The notes below the pieces were generated by a model. That model made no database searches and was not told the DNA's origin. It saw only the letters and a program-made list of their open reading frames with translations. A stretch of 64,000 nucleotides of DNA from Streptomyces sp. T12 (lineage in GTDB: Bacteria > Actinomycetota > Actinomycetes > Streptomycetales > Streptomycetaceae). Below, in pieces: positions 23,081 to 41,240 of the stretch. The translations under genes and the position numbers were made by a program. The stretch is from positions 6,386,001-6,450,000 of the forward strand of contig NZ_CP117866.1 of assembly GCF_028736035.1 (NCBI RefSeq), in the 5' to 3' direction. Every line of letters starts with the position of its first letter. Within the stretch, counting starts at the first letter, position 1.

Positions 23081-24274
<1,194 letters not shown>

Positions 24275-24316: not shown

Positions 24317-24348
24317 GGGGCCCGCACGACTTCGGTCGTGCGGGCCCC
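24317..24348. terminator. Bidirectional terminator between tuf and the secreted-protein gene
   Basis: GGGGCCCGCACGAC (24317-24330) pairs perfectly with 24335-24348 around a TTCG tetraloop, with CTTTGCTTT after it. It lies between two convergent genes and can serve both strands. Confidence 0.85.
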
Positions 24349-24383
24349 TTTGCTTTCCGGTGCTTTCCGGCAGGGGAGACGCG

Positions 24384-24911: not shown

Positions 24912-25329
24912 GACGAGTACTCCTTCTTGTTCTGGGTGTACCGGCCTTCGCGGACTGTCGCGCCTCTTCCTTCGGCGGCTCGAGCGCTGATTCGCATCCG
25001 CTGCCGGGCATCTGATCATTTACACAATCCGATCAACGCCACCCCCGGGGGATTCCTCTGCCTAGGCCGTCCGGGTTGCGGAGCACCGGAAAGGCCGAGC
25101 GCCGGTGTGTCGTCACGGGCGTTCGGCGAGGCCGTCACACCCCCGTGCGGGCCGGTTTCCGGCGCCTGTGAGCACGTCGTCCCGCGACGGGAAACGCCCG
25201 GTATCAAGTCATGCAAGTAGGACATACATTCAAAAAATGTTGATATAACCCTCACACAGGGCGTGAGCTGCTCCTCCGACGCAGCCGCGCCCCATGTGTT
25301 CGCCGAGGGCCGGGGTCAGAGGGAGAACC
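24912..25329. other. Intergenic region with an AT-rich stretch before the EPS priming gene
   Basis: No gene is apparent. Bases 25201-25250 are markedly AT-rich for this genome, with the palindrome ACATT-N5-AATGT (25226-25240) and TATAAC (25244-25249), a possible -10 box for the downstream sugar transferase. The -35 is unclear. Confidence 0.4.
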
Positions 25330-26802
25330 ATGCGGCAGTTCACCAGCGCGGCGTCAGGGCAGGCGATTCCCCTCACGCCGCACCGGTCCACCACGCCCCA
25401 ACGCCCTGCGCAGGGGTGGTGCGTACCGGTCGCGGTCGGTGCCGACTCCTTGGGGATGGCGCTGCCGACCGGGGTGACCTTCGCGGCGATCGGTGCGGCC
25501 CACCCCGTGCACCAGGCGGTGACCATCACGTTCGTCTGGGTGCTCGTGGGCCTCGCCGCCAGGCGCTACGCATCCTGGACATGGGACGAAGGCGCCCCGG
25601 TCGGACCGGTCGTGCGGGACTGGCTGGTGCTGCTCGGCGCGCTGGCCGTGCTGCGGACCGTATTCGGGCTCGGCGAGCCACCCGCAGCGGTTCTTGCCGC
25701 GCTGTGCCCGTCGTTGGCGGTCACCGTGGTCTGCCGCAAGGCGATCCATCGCCGCATCCTGGCCGTCCGACGCCGCGCCCGAGGGCTTCGACGTGTCCTC
25801 GTCGTCGGTGAGGCCGGGGCCGTGGACGCCGTGGTCGGGCAGCTCGCCGAGCGTACGGACCACGGGTACGTGGTGGTCGGGGCCTGTGTGCTGGGCGAGG
25901 GCGACGTGTTGTCCGGCCTGCCCGTGCCGGCCCGGCTGCGGGTCGGCGTGCCGACCGCCGCGGACGAGGATGCCGTGCCCGTGGCGGAGGCGGCTGAGGC
26001 GCTCGGTGCCGACCTGGTCTTCGTCACCACGGGCAGGCACATGTGCGGGGACCGGCTTCGGCGGTTGTCGTGGGCCCTGCACGACCGAGGCCGCCGGCTG
26101 ATGGTGCTGCCCGGCATCGTCGAAGTGGCCCGGCGCAGGGTCCGTATCGCCTCGGCCGCCGGGCTCACCCTGCTGGACGTCTCACCGCCGACGCGCCGTG
26201 GGCTGCCGACGCTGCTGAAGGCCGCCACGGACCGGGCAGGCTCGCTCGTGCTGCTCATGGTGCTGGCTCCGCTGTTCGCACTGCTGGCGCTCGCCGTGCG
26301 CGTGAGTTCGCCGGGGCCGGTCATCTACCGTCAGGTCCGCGTCGGCCGGGACGGGACGCCTTTCCCCATGTGGAAGTTCCGGACCATGGTCGTGGACGCG
26401 GACCGGATAAAGGGTGACCTGGCGGCGGCGAACGAACACGACGGCCATATGTTCAAGCTGCGCCGGGATCCGCGGGTCACGTCCGCCGGGCGCTTTCTGC
26501 GCCGCTACTCGCTGGACGAGCTGCCCCAGTTGGCCAATGTCCTCCTCGGACACATGTCGCTGGTGGGACCCCGCCCGCCGCTGCCCGAGGAAGTCGCCCG
26601 CTACGACCAGGTGGAGATGCGCCGGCTGAGTGTCAAACCCGGCCTCACGGGACTGTGGCAGGTGAGCGGCAGATCCGACCTGTCCTGGCACGAGACCGTC
26701 TCGCTCGATCTGCGGTACGTCGACAACTGGTCGTGGACCTGGGACATGACGGTCATGGCGCGCACGGTTCGCGCCGTGTTGGACGGGCGCGGCGCCTACT
26801 GA
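25330..26802 (+). CDS. Exopolysaccharide priming polyprenyl-phosphate sugar-phosphotransferase
   Basis: The protein has 490 residues. The N-terminal part has several hydrophobic segments and a Rossmann-like CoA-binding-type domain with VLVVGEAGAVDAVVGQL. A transmembrane helix near residues 305-325 precedes the bacterial sugar-transferase domain, with SSPGPVIYRQVRVGRDG, MWKFRTMVVDAD, RRYSLDELPQL, MSLVGPRPPLPEEV and KPGLTGLWQVSGRSDLSW. Such enzymes load the first sugar-phosphate onto undecaprenyl phosphate. The start is ATG 25330 behind GAGGGAG. It probably initiates the polymer made by the block to 41240, though it is separated from it by an opposite-strand gene. Confidence 0.9.
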   Translation: MRQFTSAASGQAIPLTPHRSTTPQRPAQGWCVPVAVGADSLGMALPTGVTFAAIGAAHPVHQAVTITFVWVLVGLAARRYASWTWDEGAPVGPVVRDWLVLLGALAVLRTVFGLGEPPAAVLAALCPSLAVTVVCRKAIHRRILAVRRRARGLRRVLVVGEAGAVDAVVGQLAERTDHGYVVVGACVLGEGDVLSGLPVPARLRVGVPTAADEDAVPVAEAAEALGADLVFVTTGRHMCGDRLRRLSWALHDRGRRLMVLPGIVEVARRRVRIASAAGLTLLDVSPPTRRGLPTLLKAATDRAGSLVLLMVLAPLFALLALAVRVSSPGPVIYRQVRVGRDGTPFPMWKFRTMVVDADRIKGDLAAANEHDGHMFKLRRDPRVTSAGRFLRRYSLDELPQLANVLLGHMSLVGPRPPLPEEVARYDQVEMRRLSVKPGLTGLWQVSGRSDLSWHETVSLDLRYVDNWSWTWDMTVMARTVRAVLDGRGAY

Positions 26803-26834
26803 GAAGGTTCGGCCCGGTGGCCTGGATCGACCCG

Positions 26835-28541
26835 TCAGGAAAGCCGGCACACCGAATCGAGATTCAGGGAGCGCACATACTGCTCGTCGACCTCGGCACC
26901 GCGGTAGCGCAGCAGGCGTGCCTTCTCGGGGATGCCCGGCGTGCACCGTGAGTCCAGCTTCAGGCGGAGGTCATGACGCAGGTACATCCACATTCCGCGG
27001 ACGACGATCGGTGTGTAGTTGTCCCGGAAGTAGGCGATGTCGTACAGCTTCGAGGCCTCCGACCACATGCCGTGTGTCTCCACCAGGTCGGGTTTGCTGG
27101 CCGCCAAGTACGAGGGCATCGCAGCGAATCCGTCCCGGGCGAGCGCAGCGTTGGCCAGCAGGGCAAGGTCAAGAATCTTCAATTTCGTACAGCACAGACT
27201 CGAGCCCCCGACGTCCGGGGTCAACACGGTCAGTGCCGGCTGTCCCAGCTTCACCCGCACCTCATCCATCGCCTCGCCGGTCATGCGATATGCCGCTGGG
27301 GTGACAGCCACCTCGGTCTCGGGATGGAGCCGTGCGGCGATGAACTGCTTTTCGATGCCGCAGGCCGTGAGGAGAAGCAGCGCGGCGATCACGGCGAAGA
27401 GGCGGGGCGTGGATTTCAGGAAATGCATGACATGAGGCTTTGACAGTGCGACCGCCACCACGCCCAGCGCGATCGCGGCCTGCTCCATCCGTCCGATGTA
27501 GCCCCAGTTCCGGCCGATCCCCAAGTTGAATGCCGCGACAGCCGCGATGTAGCCGAGGCTGAAGCTCGCGACGGGGCGGACACTCCGTGAGCGCATGCGC
27601 CCGAATGCCTCGGTGCCTGCCGACCGCCACCCACTGCGCATGGCGGTCAACGCCGTGATGGCGATGACGGCTGCCGGCAGCAGGACGTAGAGGACCTCCA
27701 CCGCGGCCACGCACACCTGCAGGATGTGCTTGATCGGCGAGTCCGCGCTGTACGGGCTGGACCGCTTCGCCGTCATCGTGTTCGGCAGCAGCGAGCCGAA
27801 CAGCGCCAGGCGAACTGCTGTGAGCACCGTGAAGGAGAGAACGGCCCCCGCAGCCAGGGCCACCGCCGAGCGGTACTCCTTGGAGCAGAGCGCCAGCACC
27901 ACAGCGCCGGCGATGACGTAGCCGACGGCTTCCGCCCGGATCCACGGGGCTGTGGCAGCCAGCAGCATCAGCCCGATCCACGCATGTCGGTGGCCGCTGC
28001 GCAGCAGCCATACGATCGCGAGCGCCGCCGCCGACAGCGACGTCATCTCCATTCCATTGATGGTCTCGTTGAGGAACGGCCCGTACCCGAAGAGCACCAG
28101 GCTGACGATCCAGGCCTGGAGGCGACCGTACTGTCGCAGCATGATGTACAGCAGGGCGGCACCGAGGGCTGCGAAGAGGCCGGACCACAGCTGGCTGGCC
28201 AGGATCATGCCGTCGAATTCCAATGGCAGCCAGCGGTAGGTCCCCGCCATCAGCAAGAACCAGAAGGGGCTCGAAAATCCCTCGACCGTCTCGGAGAGCG
28301 GTGTCAGCGCAATCTGGCCGGACTCGGCGAAGGTGCGTGCAAACGCAAGGGTGATGGATCCGTCGTCCCAGCCGTTCGCCCCGATGAACAGAGCGAGGGC
28401 GGAGTGCATGAGAAGGACCGCGCAGAACAGGCCGTAGGAAAGGGGCCGGTCTGTCTTTTCGGCTGCCCGTCGAGGCGCTGATGCGAGGTCGTCCGTCGTG
28501 CGGCTGACGCCGAGATCGTGTGCCGTCTGCCCAGCGTGCAT
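26835..28541 (-). CDS. GT-C family integral-membrane glycosyltransferase
   Basis: The protein has 568 residues with roughly ten hydrophobic helices and a soluble C-terminal domain of about 170 residues. Near the N-terminus, D59-D60 in GANGWDDGSI sit in the first outer loop, and TVEGFSSPFWFLL follows at about 86-98. This is the Asp-Asp plus VEG(Y/F)xxxxW layout of polyprenyl-phosphate-sugar-dependent GT-C enzymes such as mycobacterial AftB. It probably adds a sugar outside the membrane. The start is ATG 28541 behind GAGGA. It converges on the sugar transferase (32-bp gap) and diverges from the main EPS operon. Confidence 0.75.
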   Translation of the reverse strand: MHAGQTAHDLGVSRTTDDLASAPRRAAEKTDRPLSYGLFCAVLLMHSALALFIGANGWDDGSITLAFARTFAESGQIALTPLSETVEGFSSPFWFLLMAGTYRWLPLEFDGMILASQLWSGLFAALGAALLYIMLRQYGRLQAWIVSLVLFGYGPFLNETINGMEMTSLSAAALAIVWLLRSGHRHAWIGLMLLAATAPWIRAEAVGYVIAGAVVLALCSKEYRSAVALAAGAVLSFTVLTAVRLALFGSLLPNTMTAKRSSPYSADSPIKHILQVCVAAVEVLYVLLPAAVIAITALTAMRSGWRSAGTEAFGRMRSRSVRPVASFSLGYIAAVAAFNLGIGRNWGYIGRMEQAAIALGVVAVALSKPHVMHFLKSTPRLFAVIAALLLLTACGIEKQFIAARLHPETEVAVTPAAYRMTGEAMDEVRVKLGQPALTVLTPDVGGSSLCCTKLKILDLALLANAALARDGFAAMPSYLAASKPDLVETHGMWSEASKLYDIAYFRDNYTPIVVRGMWMYLRHDLRLKLDSRCTPGIPEKARLLRYRGAEVDEQYVRSLNLDSVCRLS

Positions 28542-28920
28542 GCCGTCTGTCCTCGTGTCGGAATCCCGCTCTTTTTCCTTCAGGAATTCAATTTCGACTC
28601 AGCGATGGCATAGTCCATCAATCAGAACGGGCGGCGGTCGCGGGCGCGCTCACAGCCGAGGCCAATCGGGTGGATCTCACGATAAGTCCGCTTGTCTCAT
28701 CGGGTGTGGCGCGCCCGAGCGCTTACGTTCGTGACATGGCGATCATGGCGAGGCAGTCATCCATAGGCGAGATGCATGGGACACGATTACGCGAAGGGCT
28801 CGCCTCACCCAGCTGGTCGACCGCGTCGCTCCAGGTGATTTCGGAATCCTCGCGCACGGACGCCATTGAGGATGTGGCAAGCGGTGATCGTTGCGCCTGC
28901 TCAGGCATGAGGTTGAGAGA
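28542..28920. other. Divergent intergenic region upstream of the main EPS operon
   Basis: This is about 380 bp between the GT-C gene and the CDP-alcohol phosphotransferase. Bases 28570-28625 are relatively AT-rich, consistent with promoters for both directions, but no box pair is convincing. No coding frame is supported. Confidence 0.4.
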
Positions 28921-29625
28921 GTGGACTTCCCCAGCACACTGAAGCAGCTCTCGAAGGCGCAGAAGCCCGCCCGCGGGGTCCCCGGCTACTCACGATTCGT
29001 CAATCGGCCGGCCGGAAGGCTGCTCGCGGCCGCGGCTCACCGTATCGGGCTTTCGCCCAACCACGTGACCGCCGCAAGCGGCCTGGTCACCTTTCCGGCC
29101 ATTGCCGCGATCGCCCTTTACCCCCCCTCACACGCGCTCGCACCATGGGTCGCGTTCGCCTTGCTCGTCGGGTTCGCGCTTGATTCCGCGGACGGTCAAC
29201 TGGCCCGGCTGCACGGGTCGGCCAGCCCTGCCGGGGCGTGGATGGACCATGTGGTGGACTGCGCGAAGATCCTGAGCGTCCATGCGGCGGTTCTGATTTC
29301 GTTCTACCGGTTCTTCGACCTCCCGCGTCCCGTCCTGCTGCTCACCCCGATCACCTTCCAGTTCGCCGCTGTCCTGCTGTTCTTCGGAGGGATCCTGACG
29401 GAACAGCTGAGACGGCGAGGGGACGATGCGCACGTCGGCCCGGTGCGCCCGGCCTCCGCTGCTCGCGGTATGGCGCTGCTGCCCGTGGATTACGGCCTGC
29501 TCTGCCTGATCTTCTTGTTCCTGGGAAATCAGAAGCTCTTCTTCACGCTGTATGTCGCCCTGCTCGCGGCCCACCTGATGCTCGTGCCCGCATTCTTCGC
29601 CAAGTGGTTCCGGGAACTCTCCTGA
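28921..29625 (+). CDS. CDP-alcohol phosphatidyltransferase-family membrane enzyme
   Basis: The protein has 234 residues with several transmembrane helices. The full family signature is present: D88-x2-D91-G92-x2-A95-R96-x8-G105-x3-D109-x3-D113, which binds two metal ions and the CDP-alcohol. These enzymes transfer a phospho-alcohol from a CDP-alcohol to an acceptor alcohol. GTG 28921 is chosen for the upstream GAGG; a TTG ten codons earlier is possible. It heads an eleven-gene, same-strand EPS block whose last gene is a cytidylyltransferase that could make its CDP substrate. The acceptor is unknown. Confidence 0.88.
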   Translation: MDFPSTLKQLSKAQKPARGVPGYSRFVNRPAGRLLAAAAHRIGLSPNHVTAASGLVTFPAIAAIALYPPSHALAPWVAFALLVGFALDSADGQLARLHGSASPAGAWMDHVVDCAKILSVHAAVLISFYRFFDLPRPVLLLTPITFQFAAVLLFFGGILTEQLRRRGDDAHVGPVRPASAARGMALLPVDYGLLCLIFLFLGNQKLFFTLYVALLAAHLMLVPAFFAKWFRELS

Positions 29626-29660
29626 CCCGGTTCATTCCCCTCACAAAGAAGGGTCGACCC

Positions 29661-30209
29661 ATGGCAGACACCGCCGTGCCGACCGCCGTGGAACGCTCCC
29701 TGCGAGGCTTCACCGGAGCCGGCTACGACAAGGGGCGCCCCCTGCTCGTTCAGGCAGCCTGGTTCGCGGTTCTCAACCTCGTCTTCGTGAAGTGGTGGTT
29801 CCCGGCCCGCTGGCGGCCCGTTCTGCTGCGGGCCTTCGGCGCGCGGATCGGGCAACGGGTGCTGATCCGCCAGCGGGTGCGCGTGCACTGGCCGTGGCGG
29901 CTGGACATCGGTGACGACGTATGGATCGGCGAGGACGCCTGGTTGCTGAACCTCGAGCGGATCAGCATCGGCAGCAATGTCTGTGTCTCCCAGGGGGCGT
30001 TGCTGTGCACCGGCAGCCACCAGCGCCTCAGCCCCACCTTCGAGTTCGACAACGGGCCCATCCGCCTGGAGCCCGGAGCCTGGGTGGCGGCGCGGGCCGT
30101 CGTGTTGCGAGGGGTCACCGTCGGTCGTGGCGCTGTGGTGGGTGCCGCGGCGATCGCCCACCGCGACATCGCACCGGCCGAGGTCGTCACGGCGAGGGGC
30201 GTGGGATGA
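29661..30209 (+). CDS. WcaF-type hexapeptide-repeat O-acetyltransferase
   Basis: The protein has 182 residues. After an N-terminal hydrophobic stretch, left-handed beta-helix repeats are visible: IGQRVLIRQRVRV, IGDDVWIGEDAWL, ISIGSNVCVSQGALLCTGSH, GAWVAARAVVLRGVTVGRGAVVGAAA. The CTGSH segment holds the likely catalytic His, as in colanic-acid acetyltransferase WcaF. It probably acetylates a sugar of the exopolysaccharide. The start is ATG 29661, and its stop overlaps the next gene's start (ATGA). Confidence 0.87.
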   Translation: MADTAVPTAVERSLRGFTGAGYDKGRPLLVQAAWFAVLNLVFVKWWFPARWRPVLLRAFGARIGQRVLIRQRVRVHWPWRLDIGDDVWIGEDAWLLNLERISIGSNVCVSQGALLCTGSHQRLSPTFEFDNGPIRLEPGAWVAARAVVLRGVTVGRGAVVGAAAIAHRDIAPAEVVTARGVG

Positions 30210-31318
30210 GGCTCGTTCATGTGGTGACGCTCGTCAGCGAGGACGGAGCGTACGGCGGTCCCACGAGCGTGGCGACGGGACAACTGGAGGAGTGCGCCGC
30301 GCGCGGCCATGAGGTCACGCTGCTGTCCTTGTGGCGAGGCAGAGCCGAGGCACCGGCACGCATCGGCTCGGTTCCGCTGCGAACGCGCCCGGCGCGCGCC
30401 CTGCTTCCTGGCCGCTTCACCGGGATCATGCACCCGCTGCTCGTCAGGGACATGTGGCGTTCCATGGGCAGGGCCGATGTGGTGCACATCCACGCGGGGC
30501 GCGACCTCGTCTCCCTCGCCGCGCTGGCCGTGGCGACGCTGCGGGGAAAGAGGTTCTTCACGCAGACGCACGGAATGGTGGAGCCACGCCACAGGCTTGT
30601 GGCCAAGCTCTTCGACAGCCTGTACGTACCTCTCCTGCGCCGGGCGCGCGGTTGTCTGGTGCTCACCGAGCGGGAGCGGCGGGCCGTGTCCGAGGTCATC
30701 GGACCGCAGGGGCCGCCGCTGCTGACGTTGCCCAACGGGGTGCGGCCCGAGCGCGACGCGGCGGTGGAGCGTCGGCCGCACGCCCCGGAGGTGCTCTTCA
30801 TGGCGCGGCTGCATCCGCGCAAGCGCCCGGAGGCGTTCGTCGAGATGGCCGCCCTGGTCCACCGGAAGCTGCCCGACGCGCGGTTCACCCTGCACGGGCC
30901 GGACGAGGGCTCGCTGCCGACGGTGCGTCAGCTCATCGCCATCCACCGGCTCGGGGATGTCGTCTCCTACGGCGGGGCGCTGTCGTACGCCGAGGCGGTG
31001 CGTGCCTACGCGAAAGCGGCGGTGTACGTGCTGCCGAGCGTGGACGAGCCGTTCCCCATGACCGTGATCGAAGCCATGTCCGCCGGAACCCCGGTGGTGT
31101 GCACGGACACCTGCGGCATGGCGGACGAACTCGCGCGCCGCGGAGCGGCGATCGTCACCGACGGCAGCCCGCAGGCCATGGCCGACGCGGTCTGCGAGCT
31201 GCTCACCGACGAGGACAAACGACATGGGCTGGTGAAGGCGGGCACGCGCGCAGTGGAGGAAGCCTTCTCCATCCACGCGGTGGCAGACCGACTGGAAGAG
31301 CTCTACCGAAATCTCTGA
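30206..31318 (+). CDS. GT4-family glycosyltransferase
   Basis: The protein has 370 residues with a GT-B fold. The N-terminus MRLVHVVTLVSEDGAYGG has the Gly-rich acceptor-side loop. The C-terminal half has VLFMARLHPRKRPEAFVEM (GT4 domain start) and the E-x7-E motif in DEPFPMTVIEAMSAGTPVV, which binds the nucleotide sugar. It is a retaining glycosyltransferase whose donor cannot be told. The start is ATG 30206, overlapping the acetyltransferase by 4 nt, which implies translational coupling. Confidence 0.9.
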   Translation: MRLVHVVTLVSEDGAYGGPTSVATGQLEECAARGHEVTLLSLWRGRAEAPARIGSVPLRTRPARALLPGRFTGIMHPLLVRDMWRSMGRADVVHIHAGRDLVSLAALAVATLRGKRFFTQTHGMVEPRHRLVAKLFDSLYVPLLRRARGCLVLTERERRAVSEVIGPQGPPLLTLPNGVRPERDAAVERRPHAPEVLFMARLHPRKRPEAFVEMAALVHRKLPDARFTLHGPDEGSLPTVRQLIAIHRLGDVVSYGGALSYAEAVRAYAKAAVYVLPSVDEPFPMTVIEAMSAGTPVVCTDTCGMADELARRGAAIVTDGSPQAMADAVCELLTDEDKRHGLVKAGTRAVEEAFSIHAVADRLEELYRNL

Positions 31319-31453
31319 CAGGTCCAGACGGAGGCATCAGGTAACCCGGGGCGGCGCAAGGGCGTGGCATATTGGCCTAATTCGGATAATTGGTGCATAG
31401 CCTACCAGGCGGGTCTCAGTGACCACTGATTCCGGGTTTCTGGAGGAGTTGCC

Positions 31454-32434
31454 ATGACCAAGCAGGTGGACGCCGTTGTTGCCGGAGGCGGGGGATTCAT
31501 CGGTGGGCATCTCGCTGCCGACCTCCTGGCGCAGGGGCTGTCGGTGCGCTGCGTCGACATCAAGCCTCAGTACGAGTGGCACCAACTGCACCGCGACGCC
31601 GAGAACGTCGTCGCCGATCTGTCGCTCCTGGAGAACGCCCGCGACGCCGTCCGGGGCGCCGGCCAGGTGTACATGCTGGCCGCCGACATGGGCGGCATGG
31701 GGTTCATCGAGAACCACAAGGCCGCCTGCATGATGTCGGTGCTGATCAGCACACACATGCTCAAGGCCGCCCACGAGGCCGATGTGGAGCGCTACTTCTA
31801 CTCCTCGTCCGCCTGCGTGTACGCCGCCGGCAAGCAGACCGCCGCGAACGTCACCGCGCTGAAGGAGGAGGACGCGTATCCGGCACAGCCCGAAGACGGC
31901 TACGGCTGGGAGAAGCTCTTTTCCGAGCGCATGTGCCGCCACTTCGAGGAGGACTACGGGTTCACCTGTCGTGTCGCGCGCTACCACAACGTGTACGGCC
32001 CCGCGGGCACGTGGACCGGCGGCCGCGAGAAGGCCCCGGCGGCCGTGTGCCGCAAGATCGCCGAGGCGGCCATCTCCGGGTCGCACCGGATCGACATCTG
32101 GGGTGACGGTCGGCAGACCCGTTCCTTCATGTACATCGACGACTGCCTCCACGGCACGCAGATGCTCATGCACGGGGCCAGCAGTGTCCCCGTCAACATC
32201 GGCTCTTCCGAACTCGTCACCATCAACCAACTGGTCGACATCGTCGAGGAGATCGCGGGCATCCGCTGCGAGCGCAAGTACCAGTTGGACGCGCCGCAGG
32301 GCGTACGCGGCCGCAACTCCGACAACAGCCTGATCCGCGAACTCCACGGCTGGGAGCCCTCGATCCCCCTCACCGCGGGCCTCGAGAAGACCTACGCCTG
32401 GGTCTACGACCAGGTCAAGCTCGCTCGCTCGTGA
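31454..32434 (+). CDS. GDP-mannose 3,5-epimerase
   Basis: The protein has 326 residues, an extended SDR. The NAD-binding GGGGFIG is at 11-17. LAADMGGMGFI, YGPAGTWTGGREKAPAA, WGDGRQTRSFMYIDD and GVRGRNSDN match plant GDP-mannose 3,5-epimerase closely. Catalytic residues Ser119, Cys121, Tyr150, Lys154 and Lys193 keep exactly the spacing of Arabidopsis S143, C145, Y174, K178 and K217. It should convert GDP-D-mannose to GDP-L-galactose, with GDP-L-gulose as by-product. The start is ATG 31454 behind TGGAGGAG, 135 bp after the previous gene. The operon context points to L-galactose in an exopolysaccharide. Confidence 0.9.
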   Translation: MTKQVDAVVAGGGGFIGGHLAADLLAQGLSVRCVDIKPQYEWHQLHRDAENVVADLSLLENARDAVRGAGQVYMLAADMGGMGFIENHKAACMMSVLISTHMLKAAHEADVERYFYSSSACVYAAGKQTAANVTALKEEDAYPAQPEDGYGWEKLFSERMCRHFEEDYGFTCRVARYHNVYGPAGTWTGGREKAPAAVCRKIAEAAISGSHRIDIWGDGRQTRSFMYIDDCLHGTQMLMHGASSVPVNIGSSELVTINQLVDIVEEIAGIRCERKYQLDAPQGVRGRNSDNSLIRELHGWEPSIPLTAGLEKTYAWVYDQVKLARS

Positions 32435-32472
32435 TCGCTCGTGATCGCTCGAATCGGCAGGGAGAGCAGCCG

Positions 32473-33675
32473 ATGAGGATCCTCGTCCACGACTACAGCG
32501 GGCACCCGTTCCAGGCACAGCTCAGCCGTGAGCTGGCGCATCGCGGTCATGACGTCGTTCACTCGACCTGCCCGGCCTACGTCTCCGGGAAGGGCAACCT
32601 CGCCGAAAACGCGGTCGCCGGCCTGCGGTTCGTCACCATCGGCGACCACATCGTGCTGGACAAGGGCGCCTACGTCCGCCGCCTCTTCCAGGAGACCCGG
32701 CTGGGCCTGGAACTGGCCCGACAGGTGCGGCGCGAGAAACCGGACGTGGCGATGCTCGGGAATCTGCCGATCCCGACCCTGGTCGTGGCCGCGTCGGCGC
32801 TGAAGATGCTGCGCATCCCCTGGGTGTTGTGGCACCAGGACATCACCGCGATCGCTCTTCGGAGCTTCGCCGCCGCCGGTGTGTCGAGGCTGATGGGCGT
32901 CGCCGCCAGAGTCTTCGAGCAGGGCGAGAAGTGGTCGGCGCGACGCGCCTCGGCGATCGTGGTGATCGCCGACTCCTTCGTGCGGGTCCACCGGGAGTGG
33001 GGCACGGCCCACAAGGTCACCGTCATTCCCAACTGGGCGCCGCTGGACGAGATCCTCCCCGTGGCCCGCACCAACGCGTGGTCGCAGGAGCACGGCCTCA
33101 CCGGCGTCAGGACCGTGCTGTACTCGGGCACGATCGGCCTCAAGCACAACCCCGCCCTGCTGGTGCGCCTGGTCGAGACGCTGCGTGAGCAGGGCGAACG
33201 GGTCCGCCTCGTCGTCGTCAACGACGGCCCGGCCGTCCCGGTCATCAAGGAGGCCGCGGCCGCCCGAGGCGTCGATCTGACCCTGTTGCCCTTCCAGCCG
33301 TACGAGCGGCTGCCCGAGGTGCTGGGCACGGGTGATGTGCTGGTCGTGCTGCTGGCGGCGGACGCCGGGGAGTTCTCGGTGCCCTCCAAGACGCTGTCCT
33401 ATCTGTGCGCCGGACGCCCGGTGCTGGGCCTGATGCCGGCGGACAACCTGGCGGCGCACCTGCTCCGCAAGGCCGGCTCGGTGGTGTTCGCCCCGGAAGA
33501 GTCCTCGCTGGCGGACGCGGCCACGTGGGTCCGCGAGGTCCTGAACGACCCGGCGCGTGCGGAGTCCCTGGGCAAGGAGAGCCGGGCGCTGGCCGAGCGC
33601 GAGTTCGCCCTGGAGGGCTGCGCCTCGCAATTCGAGGACATCCTGAGGACCGTAAGCCGCTCCCACACCGGCTGA
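32473..33675 (+). CDS. GT4-family glycosyltransferase, WbuB-like
   Basis: The protein has 400 residues. MRILVHDYSGHPFQAQLSREL opens the GT-B N-domain, and the C-domain contains VLYSGTIGLKHNP and EFSVPSKTLSYLCAGRPVLG. The latter is the SVPSK form of the donor-binding region seen in WbuB (L-fucosamine transferase) relatives. It presumably adds one sugar of the repeat unit on the cytoplasmic side. The start is ATG 32473 behind GGGAGAG; an earlier in-frame start has no comparable site. Confidence 0.88.
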   Translation: MRILVHDYSGHPFQAQLSRELAHRGHDVVHSTCPAYVSGKGNLAENAVAGLRFVTIGDHIVLDKGAYVRRLFQETRLGLELARQVRREKPDVAMLGNLPIPTLVVAASALKMLRIPWVLWHQDITAIALRSFAAAGVSRLMGVAARVFEQGEKWSARRASAIVVIADSFVRVHREWGTAHKVTVIPNWAPLDEILPVARTNAWSQEHGLTGVRTVLYSGTIGLKHNPALLVRLVETLREQGERVRLVVVNDGPAVPVIKEAAAARGVDLTLLPFQPYERLPEVLGTGDVLVVLLAADAGEFSVPSKTLSYLCAGRPVLGLMPADNLAAHLLRKAGSVVFAPEESSLADAATWVREVLNDPARAESLGKESRALAEREFALEGCASQFEDILRTVSRSHTG

Positions 33676-33725
33676 GCCTTTTCGGCATGGCATGTCTTCT
33701 CATCAACCAACATCGGGAGCTCTCG

Positions 33726-34457
33726 ATGCGCGAAATTTCCTACGAAGAACAAACGGTCAAGTCCGGCAATCCGCTGGCGCGTTTCGCTCACCGTACTCGT
33801 ATGACGGTGGCGGTCGACCTTGTCACCGGGGTATGCGCGAAGAACGGAACCGTCGTCGATTTCGGCGCAGGGCCGGGACTCTTTCTGCACACGCTCGGCG
33901 AGGCGCGCCCCGACGTCACGCTCGTCGGATACGACCGGTACATGGAACCGGCGTATTCCGAAGTGAAGTACGCGGAATCGATGGAAAGCATCGCGGCGCA
34001 GAGCGTGGATGTGCTGACCGCGTTCGAGGTCTGCGAGCATCTTTACGCCAAAGAACTCGATGATCTGCTCGAAGACGCGGTGCGCATTCTCAAGCCGAAC
34101 GGCGCGCTCGTGATCTCCGTACCGATCATGTGCGGCCTGGCCATCGTGCCGAAGGTGTCGAACTGGATGATTCGCAGCCGCTCGCTCAAGTCGGAGTACA
34201 CGCCTACGGAAGTGCTGAAGGCACTGGTCGGAATGCATGTGAGTCGACCGCAGAATCCGCGCACCACACACAAGGGCTTTGATTTTCGTGAACTGCGGGA
34301 AGTCGTGAGGGAGCGGTTCTCTCTCGATGCCGTGCATATGAGCCCGGTGCCGAACCTGCCCTGGTGGTTGAGCTCGCAGTACTTCATGGTTTGTCGGCCG
34401 AAGCGGCAGCCCTCAAGCAAAACGCTCGTGGATTCACCCGATATGTATCGCATGTGA
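33726..34457 (+). CDS. Class I SAM-dependent methyltransferase
   Basis: The protein has 243 residues. Motif I, VVDFGAGPGLFLHTL, lies at about residues 43-57, an acidic motif II follows at VGYD, and DVLTAFEVCEHL and RILKPNGALVISVP are the post-I and IV/V regions of Methyltransf_11/23 folds. It is probably a sugar O-methyltransferase acting on the polymer or its precursor, by context. The start is ATG 33726 behind GGGAG. The base composition is visibly less GC-rich than its neighbours, which suggests separate acquisition. Confidence 0.82.
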   Translation: MREISYEEQTVKSGNPLARFAHRTRMTVAVDLVTGVCAKNGTVVDFGAGPGLFLHTLGEARPDVTLVGYDRYMEPAYSEVKYAESMESIAAQSVDVLTAFEVCEHLYAKELDDLLEDAVRILKPNGALVISVPIMCGLAIVPKVSNWMIRSRSLKSEYTPTEVLKALVGMHVSRPQNPRTTHKGFDFRELREVVRERFSLDAVHMSPVPNLPWWLSSQYFMVCRPKRQPSSKTLVDSPDMYRM

Positions 34458-34489
34458 GATACAAGTAGATTCACGTGAGAGGGGTGCAG

Positions 34490-35965
34490 GTGCAGGGCAG
34501 TCAAGAACGTTGCATGGCCGCGGTCTGTGCCTGGGCCGCTGTACTCATCGGCTTGCTGCCGGGGCTGGTCCTGCAGACCTCCGACGGCCACGTCGGCGCC
34601 GCACTCGTCGTGCAGTGTGTCGTCGTGGCGCATACCGGTGGCGCGCTCACGTGGGTGCTCACCGATACGTCAGTACGGCTCGTCGCGTTCGGTTTCTGGC
34701 TCTTCTCCTATGTATGGCTCGGGCTGGCGCCGCTGGCCATGCTCGCCACCGACACCTACCCCCTCGGCTACCGGACCGACGAGGCCAACGCCTTCACCGT
34801 CACCGTCCTGACCGAAGTCGGGCTCCTCGCCTACAGCGCCGGAGCGCTCCTGGCCGCCAGGCGGGCAGAGAATCGCTCGGTCGTTCTCGGACCGGTGCTC
34901 TCCCGCAGGCTCGCGCCGTTGCCCGTGCTCGTCCTGAGCGGCCTGTCCCTCGTGCTCGCGGTCGTGCTCATTCCCCAGCTGGGAGGGTGGGGCGCCTTCT
35001 TCACCAGCAGGCAGGCCCTGTGGCAGTCGCAGTCCGCGACGGATTCGGAGCGGACGCTGCGCACCTGGATCCTCGCCGTCCCCGCCTTCTGGGCCTTGGT
35101 GGGCCTGATCCACCTGCCCCGCCGCACGACGGGCGACCGGTGGTTGCGCGGCGCCCGCCGGCTGCTGCTCCCGCTGCTGCTCGGGCTCAACGTGGTCGTC
35201 AACAACCCGATCAGCAGGCCGCGCTTCTGGGCCGGCACCGTCCTTCTGGTCCTGCTGTTCTCCTGGAGCCGGTTCAACCGCCCACGGGCCTTCCGCATCA
35301 CCGCCGCGGCGCTCACGGCGGTGGTGCTGCTCGTCTTCCCGTACAGCGACTACTTCCGCTACAGCGAACGTGAAGCCGTCCAGGTGGTGAGCCTGACGGA
35401 GCAGCTCACCTCGAACATGGACTACGACTCCTTCCAGCAGATGCAGACGGGTGTCGACCATGTGAAGGAGCACGGCTTCTCGCCGTCGGACGCGCTCGGT
35501 CCCGTCGTGTTCATGGTGCCGCGCTCCGTGTGGCCGGAAAAGCCGCAGGCCGTCGGCATCACGCTCGCCCAGCATGCGGGCTACGACTTCTGGAACCTCT
35601 CGGCACCGCTGTGGATCGAGAGCTACATGTGGGCCGGTTTTCCCTCGGTGGCGGCCGTCTTCTGCCTGCTGGGTGCGGCCGGGCGCCGTATGGACGACAT
35701 CCGGGAACGGCTCCGGGACAGGCGGACGACGCTGGCGTTTCTGCTGGTCCCGGCCTTCGCCTTCTACCAGATGATCTTCCTGCGCGGCAGCCTCCTGGCC
35801 ATCGTGGGGCCGATGCTGCTGCTCCTGGTCGTCCCGCTGTTCATCACCCGCCCCGCCGCCCGGCCATCCCGGTTCCCTTCACCGGCGCTGCCGCCCGCGA
35901 CCGCCAGCCACGCATCCATCCCTGGAACAGGAGGCATCCGTGACCAGCTCCACCAGCTTCGATGA
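34490..35965 (+). CDS. O-antigen/exopolysaccharide polymerase-like membrane protein
   Basis: The protein has 491 residues with about ten to twelve hydrophobic helices and a large extracytoplasmic loop (about residues 290-380, with VVSLTEQLTSNMDYDSFQQM). This is the usual architecture of Wzy-type polymerases, which share little sequence. Its position between glycosyltransferases and the chain-length and flippase genes supports that role. Start choice is uncertain: GTG 34490 has AGAGGGG at good distance, while GTG 34475/34484 and ATG 34514 are alternatives. Its 3' end overlaps the next gene by 26 nt. Confidence 0.72.
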   Translation: MQGSQERCMAAVCAWAAVLIGLLPGLVLQTSDGHVGAALVVQCVVVAHTGGALTWVLTDTSVRLVAFGFWLFSYVWLGLAPLAMLATDTYPLGYRTDEANAFTVTVLTEVGLLAYSAGALLAARRAENRSVVLGPVLSRRLAPLPVLVLSGLSLVLAVVLIPQLGGWGAFFTSRQALWQSQSATDSERTLRTWILAVPAFWALVGLIHLPRRTTGDRWLRGARRLLLPLLLGLNVVVNNPISRPRFWAGTVLLVLLFSWSRFNRPRAFRITAAALTAVVLLVFPYSDYFRYSEREAVQVVSLTEQLTSNMDYDSFQQMQTGVDHVKEHGFSPSDALGPVVFMVPRSVWPEKPQAVGITLAQHAGYDFWNLSAPLWIESYMWAGFPSVAAVFCLLGAAGRRMDDIRERLRDRRTTLAFLLVPAFAFYQMIFLRGSLLAIVGPMLLLLVVPLFITRPAARPSRFPSPALPPATASHASIPGTGGIRDQLHQLR

Positions 35966-37598
35966 CCGGTACGGCGAACCGGACCAGCTCCGCGACCAGC
36001 TGCGCCAGCTGCTGAAGTACCGCGTGACCATCGCGCTGGGTATCGTCCTCGGGCTGCTCGGGGGACTGCTGCTGGTGCTGCTCCGCGCGGGCAGCTACAC
36101 CTCCACCGGTGAGGTCCTCGTCCGTTCGACGGTGGACCCGTTCAGCACCTTCGGCGTGTCCGTCGACAACCAGGTGAGCATGGGCACCGAGCAGCAGATC
36201 GCGCTCAGTGCCTCCGTCGCGGCCCGTGCGGCAAAGGCGTTGCGTGAACCCTCCCACGCCGACACGCTGCTGGAGGAGCTGCGGGTCAGCAATCCGCCGC
36301 ACACCCAGATTCTCCGGTTCGAGTACACGGCCGGCACGCCGAAGCGGGCGGCCCGGATCACCAACGCGTTCCTCGACGCCTATCTCGCCGACCGCAAGGA
36401 GCGGACCGACGCCACGGTGCGGCGGATGGCGAGCGCGCTGAAGAAGCAGCTCGCCCCGCTGACCAGAAAGAGCAACGCGGAAGCCGGCAAGCCCGGCAGC
36501 GCGGCTCTGCGGGACCAGATCAACGTGCTGCAGAAGCGGATCTCCGACTTCGAGTCCCGCGACACCACCGGAGGCGACGTCGTACGCAAGGCCGAGCCGC
36601 CGGAGCAGCCCGCGGGGCCGGGGCCGGTGGCGCTCATCGGCCTCGGCCTGATGGGCGGACTGGTGCTGGCCGTCCTGCTCGCCTGGCTGCGGTGCGCCTT
36701 CGAACCGCGGGTCCGCTCGGTCGGCGAGGCCCAAGGCGCACTGGGCGCCCCGGTGCTGGCCATCCTCCCGGGCACCGGGAAGGACGGCGAACTGCTGGAG
36801 GTCGGCCGGGTCGCCAGCAGTCGCGCGGAGGTGTACCGCACGGTCGCCTTCCACCTCCGGCAGGGCGATGCCCGTACGGCCGGCGGCACGCTGCTGGTCG
36901 TGGCCCCGAAGCACGACCGCGAGGCCGAGGCGGCCGCCATCAACCTCGCCGCCGTGTTCGCCGAGTCCGGTGAGGACGTACTGCTGGTGGACGCCACCGC
37001 GAGCACACCCGGCCTCGCGGCACGACTGCCGCTGCTGAGCGAGGACTTGGGTGACGACGCCGAACCGCTGCGCCCCTTGGACGGCCGGGTCGTCGTCGAC
37101 GCGGGCACGGCGGGGCGCATCACGCTCTGCCCCGACAGACGGGGTGCGTCCACCGGCGACATCCCGATGTCCCCCATGGTGGTGCGTGCTCTGTCGTGTG
37201 CCGCTGCCGGAAGGTCCTCGGTGGTCGTCACGCGGCCTCTGCTGGAACACGCCGACGGTCTCGCGGTCGCCCAACGCGCGGACGGCGTCCTCATCGTGGG
37301 CGGCCTGGAGCACACCACACGTGACGACCTCAGGCAGGTTCGCGAGCTGATCAGCTGCTCGGGTGGACACATCGTGGGCGCGGTGCTCTGCCCGGGTACT
37401 CGGCGGAGCCTGCTCCGCGGTGCCCTGGACGGCAGCCGCGGGCCGGGGGAGCCGGGCTCGTCCGCGATGCCGGCCACCCGTGCCGAGGGTCTGTCCGGCG
37501 CTGCGCACCAGGCCGGCGGCCACCCGCAGGAAGAGCTGATCTCCCAGCCGCAGGGCTCGTCCGCCCAGGACGACACGCTCACCGCCTCCAAAGGATGA
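35940..37598 (+). CDS. Wzz-like chain-length protein with degenerate BY-kinase-like domain
   Basis: The protein has 552 residues. Transmembrane helices at about 29-49 and 229-251 flank an extracytoplasmic Wzz-like domain with a coiled segment near 150-205. The cytoplasmic domain follows the bacterial tyrosine-kinase/ParA fold (LLVVAPKHDREAEAAAINLAAVFAE and onward, VVVDAG, DGVLIVGG), but the Walker A loop at about 321-337 lacks the GK(S/T) needed for ATP, so it is probably not a kinase. The tail is disordered, with no Tyr cluster. The start is GTG 35940 behind ACAGGAGG. It would govern polymer length and export. Confidence 0.8.
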   Translation: MTSSTSFDDRYGEPDQLRDQLRQLLKYRVTIALGIVLGLLGGLLLVLLRAGSYTSTGEVLVRSTVDPFSTFGVSVDNQVSMGTEQQIALSASVAARAAKALREPSHADTLLEELRVSNPPHTQILRFEYTAGTPKRAARITNAFLDAYLADRKERTDATVRRMASALKKQLAPLTRKSNAEAGKPGSAALRDQINVLQKRISDFESRDTTGGDVVRKAEPPEQPAGPGPVALIGLGLMGGLVLAVLLAWLRCAFEPRVRSVGEAQGALGAPVLAILPGTGKDGELLEVGRVASSRAEVYRTVAFHLRQGDARTAGGTLLVVAPKHDREAEAAAINLAAVFAESGEDVLLVDATASTPGLAARLPLLSEDLGDDAEPLRPLDGRVVVDAGTAGRITLCPDRRGASTGDIPMSPMVVRALSCAAAGRSSVVVTRPLLEHADGLAVAQRADGVLIVGGLEHTTRDDLRQVRELISCSGGHIVGAVLCPGTRRSLLRGALDGSRGPGEPGSSAMPATRAEGLSGAAHQAGGHPQEELISQPQGSSAQDDTLTASKG

Positions 37599-39139
37599 GC
37601 GCCTCCGGAACGGCCCTTCCCGCCGCCGGTGGGAAGGCCGCCCGGAGCGGGGTCGCCGCCACCGCGCGGGGCGGGTGGTGGGGCTTTCTGGGGGCAGCGG
37701 TCAGCGCTGTCTTCGGCTACGCCCTCGTCACCCTGGTCACTCGTGCCCTGGGGGCGCATGGGTCGGGAGCGGTGTTCACCGGCGTTGCCGTCTTCACCAT
37801 CCTCAGCAACACCTGCAAGCTCGGTGCCGACACCGGGCTGGTGCGCTTCGTCTCCCGTGACGTGGCCACAGGCGGCGGCCGGCAGGTGGGCGCGCTTCTG
37901 CGCACCGCGGTCGTACCGGGAGCCGCGGTGAGCACCGGGGCCGCCGCCCTGCTGTTCCTGTCTCCCTCGATGGCCACCTCGCTGCTGCCGAACCTGGCTC
38001 CACAGGACGCGGTCACTCTGGTCCGGCTCTTCGCCCTGTTTCTCCCTCTGGCCACGGTCACCCTGGTTCTGCTCGGCGCGACCCAGGGCTACGGCACGGT
38101 GATTCCGCTGGTCGGGGTCGAGCAGATCGGCAAACCGGTCCTGCGCGTGCTGATCGCCGTACCGGTCGCCCTGCTGGCCCCGGGTGTGCTGAGTCTGGCC
38201 GCCGCCTGGCTCATTCCCTCCCTGGCCGGCGTCGTCGTCGCCTGGCACGCGCTGCGCCGGTGCCGCCGTACGAGCCCCGGGCGTCCCCCCGCACCCGACG
38301 CGGCCGCCACACGGCACGGATTCTGGGCATTCGCCGGGCCCCGGGCGATCTCTTCCGTCTTCGACATCAGCGCGGTCTGGGTGGGCGTCGTCCTGCTGTC
38401 CTGCCTGGCGACGAGCGAAGAGGCGGGCATCTACACCGCCGTCGGCCGGGTCGTCATCGCGGCCACGCTGCTCCAGCTCGCCATCCGGCTGGCCGTCGCT
38501 CCGGAGATCAGCCGGCTCCTCGCCGTGGGCGACATCCCACAGGCCCGCCATCTGTACCGGGTCTCGACGCGCTGGATCGTGCTGTTCTCCTGGCCGCTGC
38601 TCGTCCTGCTCACCTGCTTCCCGGGCACCGTCCTGTCCTTGTTCGGGCCGGAGTTCGAGCAGGGGGCGGCCGCGCTGGTGGTGCTCTGTATCGCCTCGGC
38701 GGTCAACGTGGGGGTGGGAAACGCCCAGACGGTGCTGCTCATGGCAGGCAAGAGCTCGTGGCATCTGGCGGTCACCGGTGTCGCGTTCACGGTGCAGCTG
38801 ACGGTCGGCCTGCTCGCCGTACCCCGCCTGGGCGTCCTCGGAGCCGCCCTGTCGTGGGCAGCGGCGACCGTCGTCGAGAACCTGGTCTCCGCCGCGCTGG
38901 TGCGGCGGCATCCGGGCTTCACGATCATCGACCACGGATATCTCCTGGCGACCGCCGCCGGCCTGTGTCTCACGGTGCCGCTGGTCCTTCCCGCCAGGCT
39001 CCTGGCAGGTGACACGGCCATCGGACTTGCCGTCGCAATCACCATGGGATTTTGCGTATTCGGTATAAGTTTGTGGCGATTTAGCGCCCCCCTGGGGGTG
39101 CGTGAACTCGTCGGTGTGCTGCGCGAACGCGCCACTTGA
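37595..39139 (+). CDS. Polysaccharide flippase (Wzx/MATE-like)
   Basis: The protein has 514 residues with twelve to fourteen hydrophobic helices. The N-terminus has GYALVTLVTRALGAHGSGAVF, the lead motif of polysaccharide-biosynthesis flippases, and LLGATQGYGTVIP and PEFEQGAAALVVL are also family-like. It should move the lipid-linked repeat unit across the membrane. ATG 37595 overlaps the stop of the previous gene by 4 nt (ATGA). Confidence 0.88.
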   Translation: MSASGTALPAAGGKAARSGVAATARGGWWGFLGAAVSAVFGYALVTLVTRALGAHGSGAVFTGVAVFTILSNTCKLGADTGLVRFVSRDVATGGGRQVGALLRTAVVPGAAVSTGAAALLFLSPSMATSLLPNLAPQDAVTLVRLFALFLPLATVTLVLLGATQGYGTVIPLVGVEQIGKPVLRVLIAVPVALLAPGVLSLAAAWLIPSLAGVVVAWHALRRCRRTSPGRPPAPDAAATRHGFWAFAGPRAISSVFDISAVWVGVVLLSCLATSEEAGIYTAVGRVVIAATLLQLAIRLAVAPEISRLLAVGDIPQARHLYRVSTRWIVLFSWPLLVLLTCFPGTVLSLFGPEFEQGAAALVVLCIASAVNVGVGNAQTVLLMAGKSSWHLAVTGVAFTVQLTVGLLAVPRLGVLGAALSWAAATVVENLVSAALVRRHPGFTIIDHGYLLATAAGLCLTVPLVLPARLLAGDTAIGLAVAITMGFCVFGISLWRFSAPLGVRELVGVLRERAT

Positions 39140-39213
39140 GGCCGTCTCAGAGCCGAGACCGCCCCTGCTCCTCCCCTTCTCCCACCCGTACTTGCTGCAA
39201 CCAGGGATGTTCC

Positions 39214-40755
39214 ATGCGCCTGAGAAAAAGCACGAAGAGGGGGGCCACCACGGCTTCGGCTGTGGCCCTCCTCGCGGCTGCGTCGCTCATCACCGCTTCG
39301 AGCTCGGCAGCCGACGGCGACGAAAAGACCCTGACCGCCGACCGTTTGGCGACCTGGCAGACCGACGGCATCGTCTGGTCGATCGAGTACGCAGACGGTG
39401 TCGTGTACGTCGGCGGAACCTTCGGCAAGGTCCGTCCGCCGGGCGCGAAGCCCGGCCAGAGGGAGGTCGCACGCAAGAACTTCGCCGCGTTCGACGCCGC
39501 CACCGGCAAGCTGCTGCCGTGCGCCAAGTCCTTCTCCGGCGCGGGTGACACCGTACGGGCGCTGAAGGCGTCGCCGGACGGTGAGGTGCTGTACGTCGGC
39601 GGCTCGTTCGGCAAGGTCGGCAAGGCCGATGCGTCCAGTGCGGTCGCGCTCAACACGGCCGACTGCTCGCTGCGCAAGGACTTCCGTCCGCACATGTCGT
39701 CGTTCGTGCGGGCGATCGAGGTCACGGACGCCGCGGTCTATCTGGGCGGCGACTTCACGATCGTCAACGGTCAGAAGAGGCAGCGCATCGCGGCGTTCAC
39801 CCCCAGCGGTTCGCTGCTGCCGTTCAAGGCGGAGATCGACGCCCCCGTGCGGGCCATCCTCGCCGCGCCCGAGTTCGGCAAGCTCATCGTCGGCGGCGAC
39901 TTCCTCGAGGTCAACGACGAGTTCGAGTTCAAGCTCGTCGCCCTGCGCCCCGCCACAGGCACGACGGTGACCTCGTACCCGAGCTGGCTGCCCGTGCGAT
40001 CGAAGGTAAAGGCGCTGGTACGCGACGCAACCAACTTCTATCTGGCGGCCGAGGGCAAGGGAACGGGCATCTTCGACGGCCGCATCGCCGGCCGCCTCGG
40101 CAACGGCGAGATGGTCTGGAAGGACACCTGCCTGGGTGCCACCCAAGCCGTCGCCGTGCACAACGGTGTTCTCTACAGCGGGTCCCACGCCCACAACTGC
40201 AGGGACACACCGGGCGGTTTCCCCGAGTACAACCAGCGCCAGCACTTCCTGGCCCAGTCGGTCCGCAACCGGCACATCCTGCACTGGTTCCCCGACACGG
40301 ACGGCGGCACCGGCGAGGGCAACGGCCCTCGTGCGCTGAAGATGGCCGGTGAAGTCCTCTGGGCGGGCGGCGAGTTCACCACGGTCAACGGCAGGGGGCA
40401 GCAGAGCCTGGTCCGCTTCTCGCCCGGGCCCGACCGGGGAGCCCCGGAAGAGCCGCCCCAGCTCCAGGCCTCGGCCTCGGCCGCCGGCAAGGTCACGCTC
40501 AGCTGGCGGGCCGCATGGGACCGGGACGACGCGGAGCTGAAGTACCTGGTCTACCGCGACGGCAAGCTCGTGGCCTCGCCGACGCAGCGGTCCGCGGAGT
40601 GGAACCGGCCCACGATGACGTACACGGATTCCGTCGCCCCCGGCTCGCGCCATCGCTACCGGATCGCCGTCAGCGACGGCGAGAACACCTCGCCCAGGTC
40701 GAAAGCGCTCGTAGTCGCAGCGGTCGCCGACGGGCGTCCGAAGGAACAGCGTTGA
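39214..40755 (+). CDS. Secreted beta-propeller/fibronectin-III protein in the EPS operon
   Basis: The protein has 513 residues. A signal peptide (AVALLAAASLITASSSAA) is followed by repeated blades with the pattern V/LYVGGxF..V, seen as VYVGGTFGKV, LYVGGSFGKV, VYLGGDFTIVNG, LIVGGDFLEVND and LWAGGEFTTVNG. These resemble delta-60/PQQ-like propeller repeats. The last 90 or so residues form a fibronectin type III domain (KVTLSWRAAWDRDDAELKYLVYRDG to SRHRYRIAVSDG). It is exported, and I infer polymer binding or surface attachment. The start is ATG 39214 behind AGGGA; it joins the next gene by a TGATG overlap. Confidence 0.8.
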   Translation: MRLRKSTKRGATTASAVALLAAASLITASSSAADGDEKTLTADRLATWQTDGIVWSIEYADGVVYVGGTFGKVRPPGAKPGQREVARKNFAAFDAATGKLLPCAKSFSGAGDTVRALKASPDGEVLYVGGSFGKVGKADASSAVALNTADCSLRKDFRPHMSSFVRAIEVTDAAVYLGGDFTIVNGQKRQRIAAFTPSGSLLPFKAEIDAPVRAILAAPEFGKLIVGGDFLEVNDEFEFKLVALRPATGTTVTSYPSWLPVRSKVKALVRDATNFYLAAEGKGTGIFDGRIAGRLGNGEMVWKDTCLGATQAVAVHNGVLYSGSHAHNCRDTPGGFPEYNQRQHFLAQSVRNRHILHWFPDTDGGTGEGNGPRALKMAGEVLWAGGEFTTVNGRGQQSLVRFSPGPDRGAPEEPPQLQASASAAGKVTLSWRAAWDRDDAELKYLVYRDGKLVASPTQRSAEWNRPTMTYTDSVAPGSRHRYRIAVSDGENTSPRSKALVVAAVADGRPKEQR

Positions 40756-41240
40756 TGGGAGAACGTCTCGGCTACGCGCCAGGGGTCTTCGACCTCTTCC
40801 ATGTGGGCCATCTGAACATCCTGCGCCGGGCGCGCGGGCACTGCGACCGGCTCATCGCCGGTGTCTGCTCGGACGACCTCGTGGTGCGCCTGAAGGGCAG
40901 GCCGCCCGTCGTCCCGCTCTCCGAGCGGCTGCAGATCGTTCAGAGTGTGCGCTATGTGGACGAGACGTTCGTCGCGACCGTGGACGACAAGATCGGGATC
41001 TGGAAGGAAGTCGGCTTCGACGTCATCTTCAAAGGTGACGACTGGCTCGGCACGGAGGTCTGGACGGCTCTCGAAACCGAATTCGCGAGGGTGGGGGTGA
41101 AGGTCGTCTACTTCCCCTACACCGTGCACACCTCGAGCACGCTGCTACGGGACGCGCTCCAGCTCCTCGCCCAGCGGAGCCCTTCCGAGCCTGCCTCGGG
41201 ACAGCTCGCGGGACCGGGTCCGAGAAGTACAGAGGGCTGA
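40755..41240 (+). CDS. Glycerol-3-phosphate cytidylyltransferase-like enzyme
   Basis: The protein has 161 residues. GYAPGVFDLFHVGHLNILRRAR contains the HxGH nucleotidyltransferase motif (His16, His19). FKGDDWLGTEVW and HTSSTLLRD correspond to the substrate-binding region and the RTEGISTT-like end of TagD/CCT cytidylyltransferases. It should form a CDP-alcohol from CTP and a polyol phosphate, glycerol 3-phosphate being the nearest guess. The start is ATG 40755, overlapping the propeller gene's stop by one base. Its likely customer is the CDP-alcohol transferase at 28921. Confidence 0.85.
   Translation: MGERLGYAPGVFDLFHVGHLNILRRARGHCDRLIAGVCSDDLVVRLKGRPPVVPLSERLQIVQSVRYVDETFVATVDDKIGIWKEVGFDVIFKGDDWLGTEVWTALETEFARVGVKVVYFPYTVHTSSTLLRDALQLLAQRSPSEPASGQLAGPGPRSTEG

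Follow-up and report, generated by a model that had tools for sequence, protein, structure and literature searches.

Within the window analysed here, a stretch of 64,000 nucleotides at C1:6386001-6450000 of the 11.46 Mb genome of Streptomyces sp. T12, a GDP-mannose 3,5-epimerase (GME) homologue is encoded in an exopolysaccharide gene cluster, immediately upstream of a GT4 glycosyltransferase gene that recurs beside it in other actinobacteria. Membership of the protein in the GME family, its conserved active site, the content of the cluster and the conservation of the gene pair were established by computation. Judged from the sequence, the enzyme probably makes mainly GDP-L-galactose from housekeeping GDP-mannose, with the adjacent GT4 enzyme transferring the L-sugar to an exopolysaccharide repeat unit.

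The reading frame (Table 1) runs from an ATG to a single, terminal stop codon, with the limits given in a preliminary description of this DNA. GGAGGAG stands a short way 5' of the start codon, as seen by eye, and the GC3 of 0.91 matches the codon-position composition of the other called genes of the window. No other gene of the genome is a close copy; the strongest further match is 29% identical (E 9.5e-25). Among the 106 PDB sequences matched by phmmer, the top five were plant GMEs at 293 to 296 bits (best 295.8 bits, E 3.6e-87), followed in sixth place by the first non-GME, a UDP-glucose 4-epimerase at 96.7 bits; pairwise, 141 of 305 aligned residues (46%) are identical between the window protein and Arabidopsis GME. 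The extended SDR fold, the glycine motif and the S...YxxxK triad are all present. In a fold search with the AlphaFold model (pLDDT 89.1, pTM 0.90), 14 plant GME chains ranked first (E 1.3e-35 to 2.6e-31, TM ~0.87) and the best non-GME SDR among the 50 matches listed reached E 2.0e-24 and TM 0.78, a ranking that alone is weak evidence for GME, since SDRs in general have the same fold.

Five catalytic positions of Arabidopsis GME (S143, C145, Y174, K178 and K217) align with S119, C121, Y150, K154 and K193 at a constant offset of 24, as the preliminary description had stated, and N203 follows with the same offset (N179). Beyond these positions gaps shift the offset, to 20 for R243 (R223) and to 19 for R306 (R287), with both arginines kept; passages of PMC8787198 give these two as functional arginines of GME and distinguish GME, with Cys and Lys together with Arg, from fucose synthase, with Cys and His together with Lys. 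C121, K193 and R287 of the window protein form the GME signature C/K/R. The same signature was counted in all 13 plant and algal rows and in 114 of 114 bacterial homologue rows, which were selected by similarity to the window protein, are related and possibly include same-species duplicates, and so do not amount to 114 independent observations. These bacterial rows were drawn from 119 loci above 150 bits after removal of five copies (own genome and re-fetched stretches). As a control, C/H/K was read in 7/7 correctly read fucose-synthase rows, an eighth (L135), read on the wrong strand, being left out of the count and corrected for the large tree. In the NAD motif, the third glycine is present in the window protein but is alanine in 12 of the 13 plant rows.

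Phylogenetic placement was assessed in two trees. The careful tree was built with IQ-TREE and bootstrap from 42 rows of full reading frames, omitting L004 and L005, for which no frame with the glycine motif had been picked; the large tree retained 103 of 138 rows after thinning of near-copies and includes two SDRs of the T12 genome on very long branches. In the careful tree, a GME clade of 28 rows, comprising the window protein together with six green plants and algae, two cyanophages, two NRPS-linked proteins and others, received support of 97/94 and appeared in 96% of 200 bootstrap trees. Eight fucose synthases formed a separate clade (100/100), and six other SDRs fell outside the GME clade, some with long branches. 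The tree check that had been proposed thus groups the protein with GMEs and not with other sugar epimerases. Together with plant GMEs as best PDB relatives, the intact C/K/R residues and the fold rank, this upholds the earlier assignment to the GME family, for which the sequence evidence is strong.

The label "plant-type" was not supported. The window protein falls in an exclusively bacterial group (12 rows, support 100/100, in the careful tree; 64 rows, support 99, in the large tree) that spans Actinomycetota, Acidobacteriota, Pseudomonadota, Bacteroidota, Planctomycetota, Chloroflexota and Chlamydiota and lies beside, not within, the plant clade; moreover, bacterial GMEs had already been published, as passages of PMC6678494 and PMC8787198 attest. 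Plants form a clade of their own (100/100 and 100, respectively), which joins the bacteria-only group at 95/85 in the careful tree, an order that the large tree leaves open. A recent transfer from plants was rejected, the window protein being outside the plant clade in both trees. On present sampling, these topologies suggest that the family is mainly bacterial, with plant GME as one of its branches.

A protein search returned at least 8000 homologues at E≤1e-40. Distribution within Streptomyces is patchy, with a match at E≤1e-60 in 14 of 199 genomes (identity is 81-100% in eleven of these, T12 among them, and 43-51% in three), and a phylum sample gave a GME match in 22 of 396 genomes. Cyanophages also carry homologues, in 37 phage records at E≤1e-40; Synechococcus phage S-SCSM1 (L143, 4956-5945) and Prochlorococcus phage P-TIM68 (L144, 5001-6050) both retain the full catalytic set, and in S-SCSM1 the annotation places genes for GDP-mannose dehydratase and GDP-fucose synthase before GME and one for an alpha-1,2-fucosyltransferase two genes beyond it. 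In two Streptomyces genomes, homologues of 43-44% identity (L100 and L101, the same GME copies as L110 and L111) lie beside large NRPS-like reading frames, recognized by eye. These proteins branch first in the GME clade, replace the asparagine equivalent to Arabidopsis N203 by alanine and read RAKSLS for REKAPA around the catalytic lysine; their loci possibly make L-sugar-bearing peptides.

The family matches of the neighbouring genes (Table 1) agree with the location in a Streptomyces exopolysaccharide cluster proposed in the preliminary description. An initiating polyprenyl sugar transferase, glycosyltransferases and a Wzx flippase, by which Wzx/Wzy-type clusters are recognized, are all present. 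GT4 genes flank GME on both sides, a gap of 135 bases lies 5' of GME, and several cluster genes overlap or nearly touch, in what appears to be an operon-like arrangement. The cluster (24300-42800) lies between tuf (23081-24274) and rpsJ (42826-43134), the ends of two ribosomal gene runs, and no RNA family reached its gathering threshold in 23000-43500. Among the 14 named Streptomyces loci, tuf is found upstream in five (L009-L012, L015); L013 keeps the gene order with tuf out of reach, and L014 and L016-L022 are arranged differently, likewise with tuf out of reach. The 568-aa opposite-strand protein is kept in L009 of S. cyaneus (85%) and in L011 (78%). The CDP-alcohol phosphotransferase-like and cytidylyltransferase-like genes could jointly add a phospho-alcohol group to the polymer. 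In S. coelicolor, passages of PMC6767563 link the cwg operon, sco6179-6190, to sigma-E.

Table 1. Genes of the polysaccharide cluster and active-site features of the GME homologue (window coordinates).
Feature	Position	Strand	Evidence
Polyprenyl-phosphate hexose-1-phosphate transferase (initiating enzyme)	25330..26802	+	TIGR03025 366.3 bits, above cut-off 295.55; PF02397
568-aa protein, no family match	26835..28541	-	Profile searches
CDP-alcohol phosphotransferase-like protein	28921..29625	+	PF01066 35.9 bits, above 22; start codon by eye
WcaF-like hexapeptide acetyltransferase	29661..30209	+	NF007797 186.7 bits, slightly below cut-off 192
GT4 glycosyltransferase	30206..31318	+	Family match
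GDP-mannose 3,5-epimerase homologue (GME)	31454..32434	+	326 aa; reading frame, phmmer, residues, tree, fold
NAD-binding glycine motif GGGGFIGG (residues 11-18)	31484..31507	+	Translation; G11/G14/G17 align with Arabidopsis G34/G37/A40
S119-A120-C121, triad serine and catalytic acid cysteine (Arabidopsis C145)	31808..31816	+	Alignment; S119 and C121 in 114/114 bacterial rows
Y150-x3-K154 catalytic motif	31901..31915	+	Alignment to Arabidopsis GME; row residue count
Loop G189-G190-R191-E192-K193 with catalytic base K193 (Arabidopsis K217)	32018..32032	+	Alignment
R287, counterpart of cysteine-acidifying R306	32312..32314	+	Alignment; row residue count
GT4 glycosyltransferase, WcaI-like; candidate GDP-L-galactose transferase	32473..33675	+	NF007640 92.8 bits, below cut-off 276
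Class I methyltransferase	33726..34457	+	Family match
Candidate Wzy polymerase, by position only	34514..35965	+	No family match over cut-off
Wzz/Wzc-like chain-length protein, weak match	35940..37598	+	TIGR01006 39.9 bits (cut-off 296); PF02706 16.6 bits (cut-off 25.5)
Wzx-type flippase	37595..39139	+	PF01943 42.6 bits, above cut-off 28.2
Beta-propeller-like protein, probably secreted	39214..40755	+	PF17164 31.8 bits, above 27; signal-like N-terminus by eye
Cytidylyltransferase-like protein	40755..41240	+	TIGR00125 68.6 bits, above cut-off 27.7; start by eye

The downstream GT4 gene starts 38 bases past the GME stop. Of 80 loci, 73 had room for a downstream gene (seven were too short), and in 29 of these, 28 of them actinobacterial, the start of a same-strand GT4 homologue lies at most 500 nt downstream of GME; the other 44 loci have no GT4 homologue after GME. 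All 14 named Streptomyces loci carry the pair, which stays together in eight of them (L014, L016-L022) despite reversed or moved other cluster genes. Ten further close Streptomyces loci (L089-L098, some perhaps of the same species) also have the GT4 homologue, which is absent within the short flanks of the three distant Streptomyces homologues L099-L101. The GT4 protein scores 92.8 and 53.5 bits with the WcaI models, far short of their respective cut-offs of 276 and 800.45, and a structure-database search for solved relatives gave two weak matches, uninformative on the donor.

L-Fucose is 6-deoxy-L-galactose, and because of this a WcaI-like enzyme would be reasonable as a GDP-L-galactose transferase. 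The assignment of the GT4 enzyme as a GDP-L-galactose transferase paired with GME is a good, testable hypothesis. In colanic acid synthesis, WcaJ, WcaI and WcaE act early and fucose is added in steps two and three, according to passages of PMC12075129. More tentatively, and at somewhat less than even chances, many actinobacteria may make colanic-acid-like exopolysaccharides in which L-galactose replaces L-fucose, by means of GME and a dedicated WcaI-related GT4 L-galactosyltransferase, a module whose two genes would remain side by side from one cluster arrangement to another and which, in a number of Streptomyces, T12 among them, would lie in a cluster between tuf and rpsJ. If this is right, soil actinobacteria would have a set of two genes that makes L-galactose and attaches it, with a candidate GDP-L-galactose transferase; passages of PMC8787198 name transferases able to use GME products as worthwhile search targets.

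Other lineages place different genes next to GME. In L039 and L053, both from Bacteroidota, the reading frame after GME encodes a family-11 glycosyltransferase; a GDP-mannose 4,6-dehydratase takes this place in L069, and a WecG/TagA/CpsF-family glycosyltransferase in L051 (Glycomyces) and L063 (Acidobacteriaceae). Genes like these neighbours recur in other loci of the groups concerned. Among the 80 loci, nine have a GDP-mannose dehydratase gene in the flanking DNA that was retrieved. With seven glycan-gene queries, 60 of the 80 loci gave one or more matches and 20 gave none, counts that have no background rate, come from flanks of differing length and include self-matches, four of the queries (GDP-mannose dehydratase, family 11 and two WecG-type) having come from the same locus set. 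If the role proposed here is right, GME would seem to be chiefly a bacterial glycan enzyme, the plant ascorbate enzyme being one branch of the family.

A single mannose-1-phosphate guanylyltransferase of the genome exceeds its curated cut-off (552.9 bits; cut-off 440), and profile searches of the genome found neither a GDP-mannose 4,6-dehydratase nor a GDP-fucose synthase over cut-off; therefore GDP-mannose should be available, without sign of the standard GDP-fucose route. A branch through GDP-L-galactofuranose was rejected, as the genome has no family-75 mutase (PF03214). We infer catalysis, product, transferase donor and polymer structure in the following form. GDP-mannose would come from the housekeeping pool of the cell, and bound NAD+ and Y150 would oxidise its C4, GME being self-sufficient in this respect. 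Epimerisation at C5 and C3 would fall to C121 and K193, with R287 holding the cysteine acidic, and re-reduction of the 4-keto group would yield mainly GDP-L-galactose. The WcaI-like GT4 enzyme would add the L-sugar to the polyprenyl-linked repeat unit begun by the hexose-1-phosphate transferase, and the unit, possibly acetylated and methylated, would then be flipped by the Wzx-like protein and polymerised.

The product of use might instead be GDP-L-gulose, the C5 epimer only, as proposed for BlmG, with L-gulose held in the polymer. Passages of PMC6678494 and PMC8787198 report GDP-L-gulose as a GME side product, and Streptomyces GME homologues also occur beside NRPS-like reading frames (L100, L101). 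However, the window protein has the plant-form loop HN...GGREKAPA, and therefore GDP-L-galactose is favoured, whereas the two NRPS-linked proteins have HA...xRAKSLS, a comparison that is only suggestive, as L-gulose is not known to occur in the products of these NRPSs. An L-galacto (fucose-like) donor is likewise indicated by the WcaI-like GT4, by the linkage to GDP-mannose dehydratase and by the family-11 transferase of the Bacteroidota loci L039 and L053. Loop residues and neighbours make GDP-L-galactose the likely product over GDP-L-gulose, and an L-gulose polymer unlikely. Among the top matches in the open-licence literature, no L-galactose-containing Streptomyces polymer and no paper on the present cluster was found; Ebosin, a Streptomyces polymer, has galactose and fucose, described in passages of PMC4347597 without the handedness of the galactose. 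Quite unlikely, too, is a GME-fold epimerase of the bacterial group that uses another GDP-sugar or makes mainly GDP-D-altrose or another epimer: the bacterial group was placed without any assayed enzyme, identity to Arabidopsis GME is at the level given above and passages of PMC8787198 report GDP-D-altrose as a GM35E side product, yet neither the loop nor any diagnostic catalytic position is altered.

Misreading of a GDP-L-fucose synthase (GMER) or another sugar-nucleotide SDR as GME is contradicted by the data and very improbable. GDP-L-fucose synthase is the best NCBIfam model and the nearest related activity in NCBIfam, but at 121 bits the match falls far short of the cut-off, 500 bits (NF047922), K193 and R287 occupy the fucose-synthase His and Lys positions, the two families form the separate clades described above, and the genome lacks a GDP-mannose 4,6-dehydratase over cut-off as feeder; on score, C/K/R residues and tree, this identity was rejected. 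Least credible is service in an ascorbate-like pathway as in plants. The enzyme family is common to the plant ascorbate route, and a sorbosone-dehydrogenase-like gene lies downstream (41371-42327), but GME is embedded among polysaccharide genes, and in L013 and L014 the sorbosone-dehydrogenase-like gene is on the opposite side of GME and reversed, so this role was rejected on gene context.

Compared with known systems, the window GME resembles plant GME (Arabidopsis, PDB 2C59; Myrciaria dubia, 8SG0) in its fold, NAD motif region, S/Y/K triad, Cys-Lys acid-base pair, both key arginines and substrate-wall Asn, and differs in overall sequence (46% identity), separate clade, the third glycine of the NAD motif and a context of polysaccharide export. 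The cluster can be likened to E. coli colanic acid synthesis (Wca/Wz) in its polyprenyl hexose-1-phosphate transferase, WcaI-like GT4, WcaF-like acetyltransferase and flippase; in contrast to that system, its WcaJ, WcaI and WcaF matches all lie below cut-offs and GME replaces the GDP-fucose genes. BlmG of the bleomycin cluster (Q9FB21), likened here by description, is a GME homologue from Streptomyces that shares 42% identity with the Arabidopsis enzyme and is proposed to supply L-gulose to an antibiotic, according to passages of PMC6678494, whereas the window GME lies in a polysaccharide cluster. A bacterial parallel in neighbour types is MfGM35E of Methylacidiphilum fumariolicum (UniProt I0K0X9), whose gene, as passages of the same paper (PMC6678494) relate, lies near glycosyltransferase, methyltransferase and phosphatidylglycerolphosphate synthase genes, from which its authors infer a lipopolysaccharide role; MfGM35E has been assayed, whereas the window GME is known from sequence alone. 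Bacterial GMEs are thus already in print, and the window gene is a well-supported candidate for a further one.
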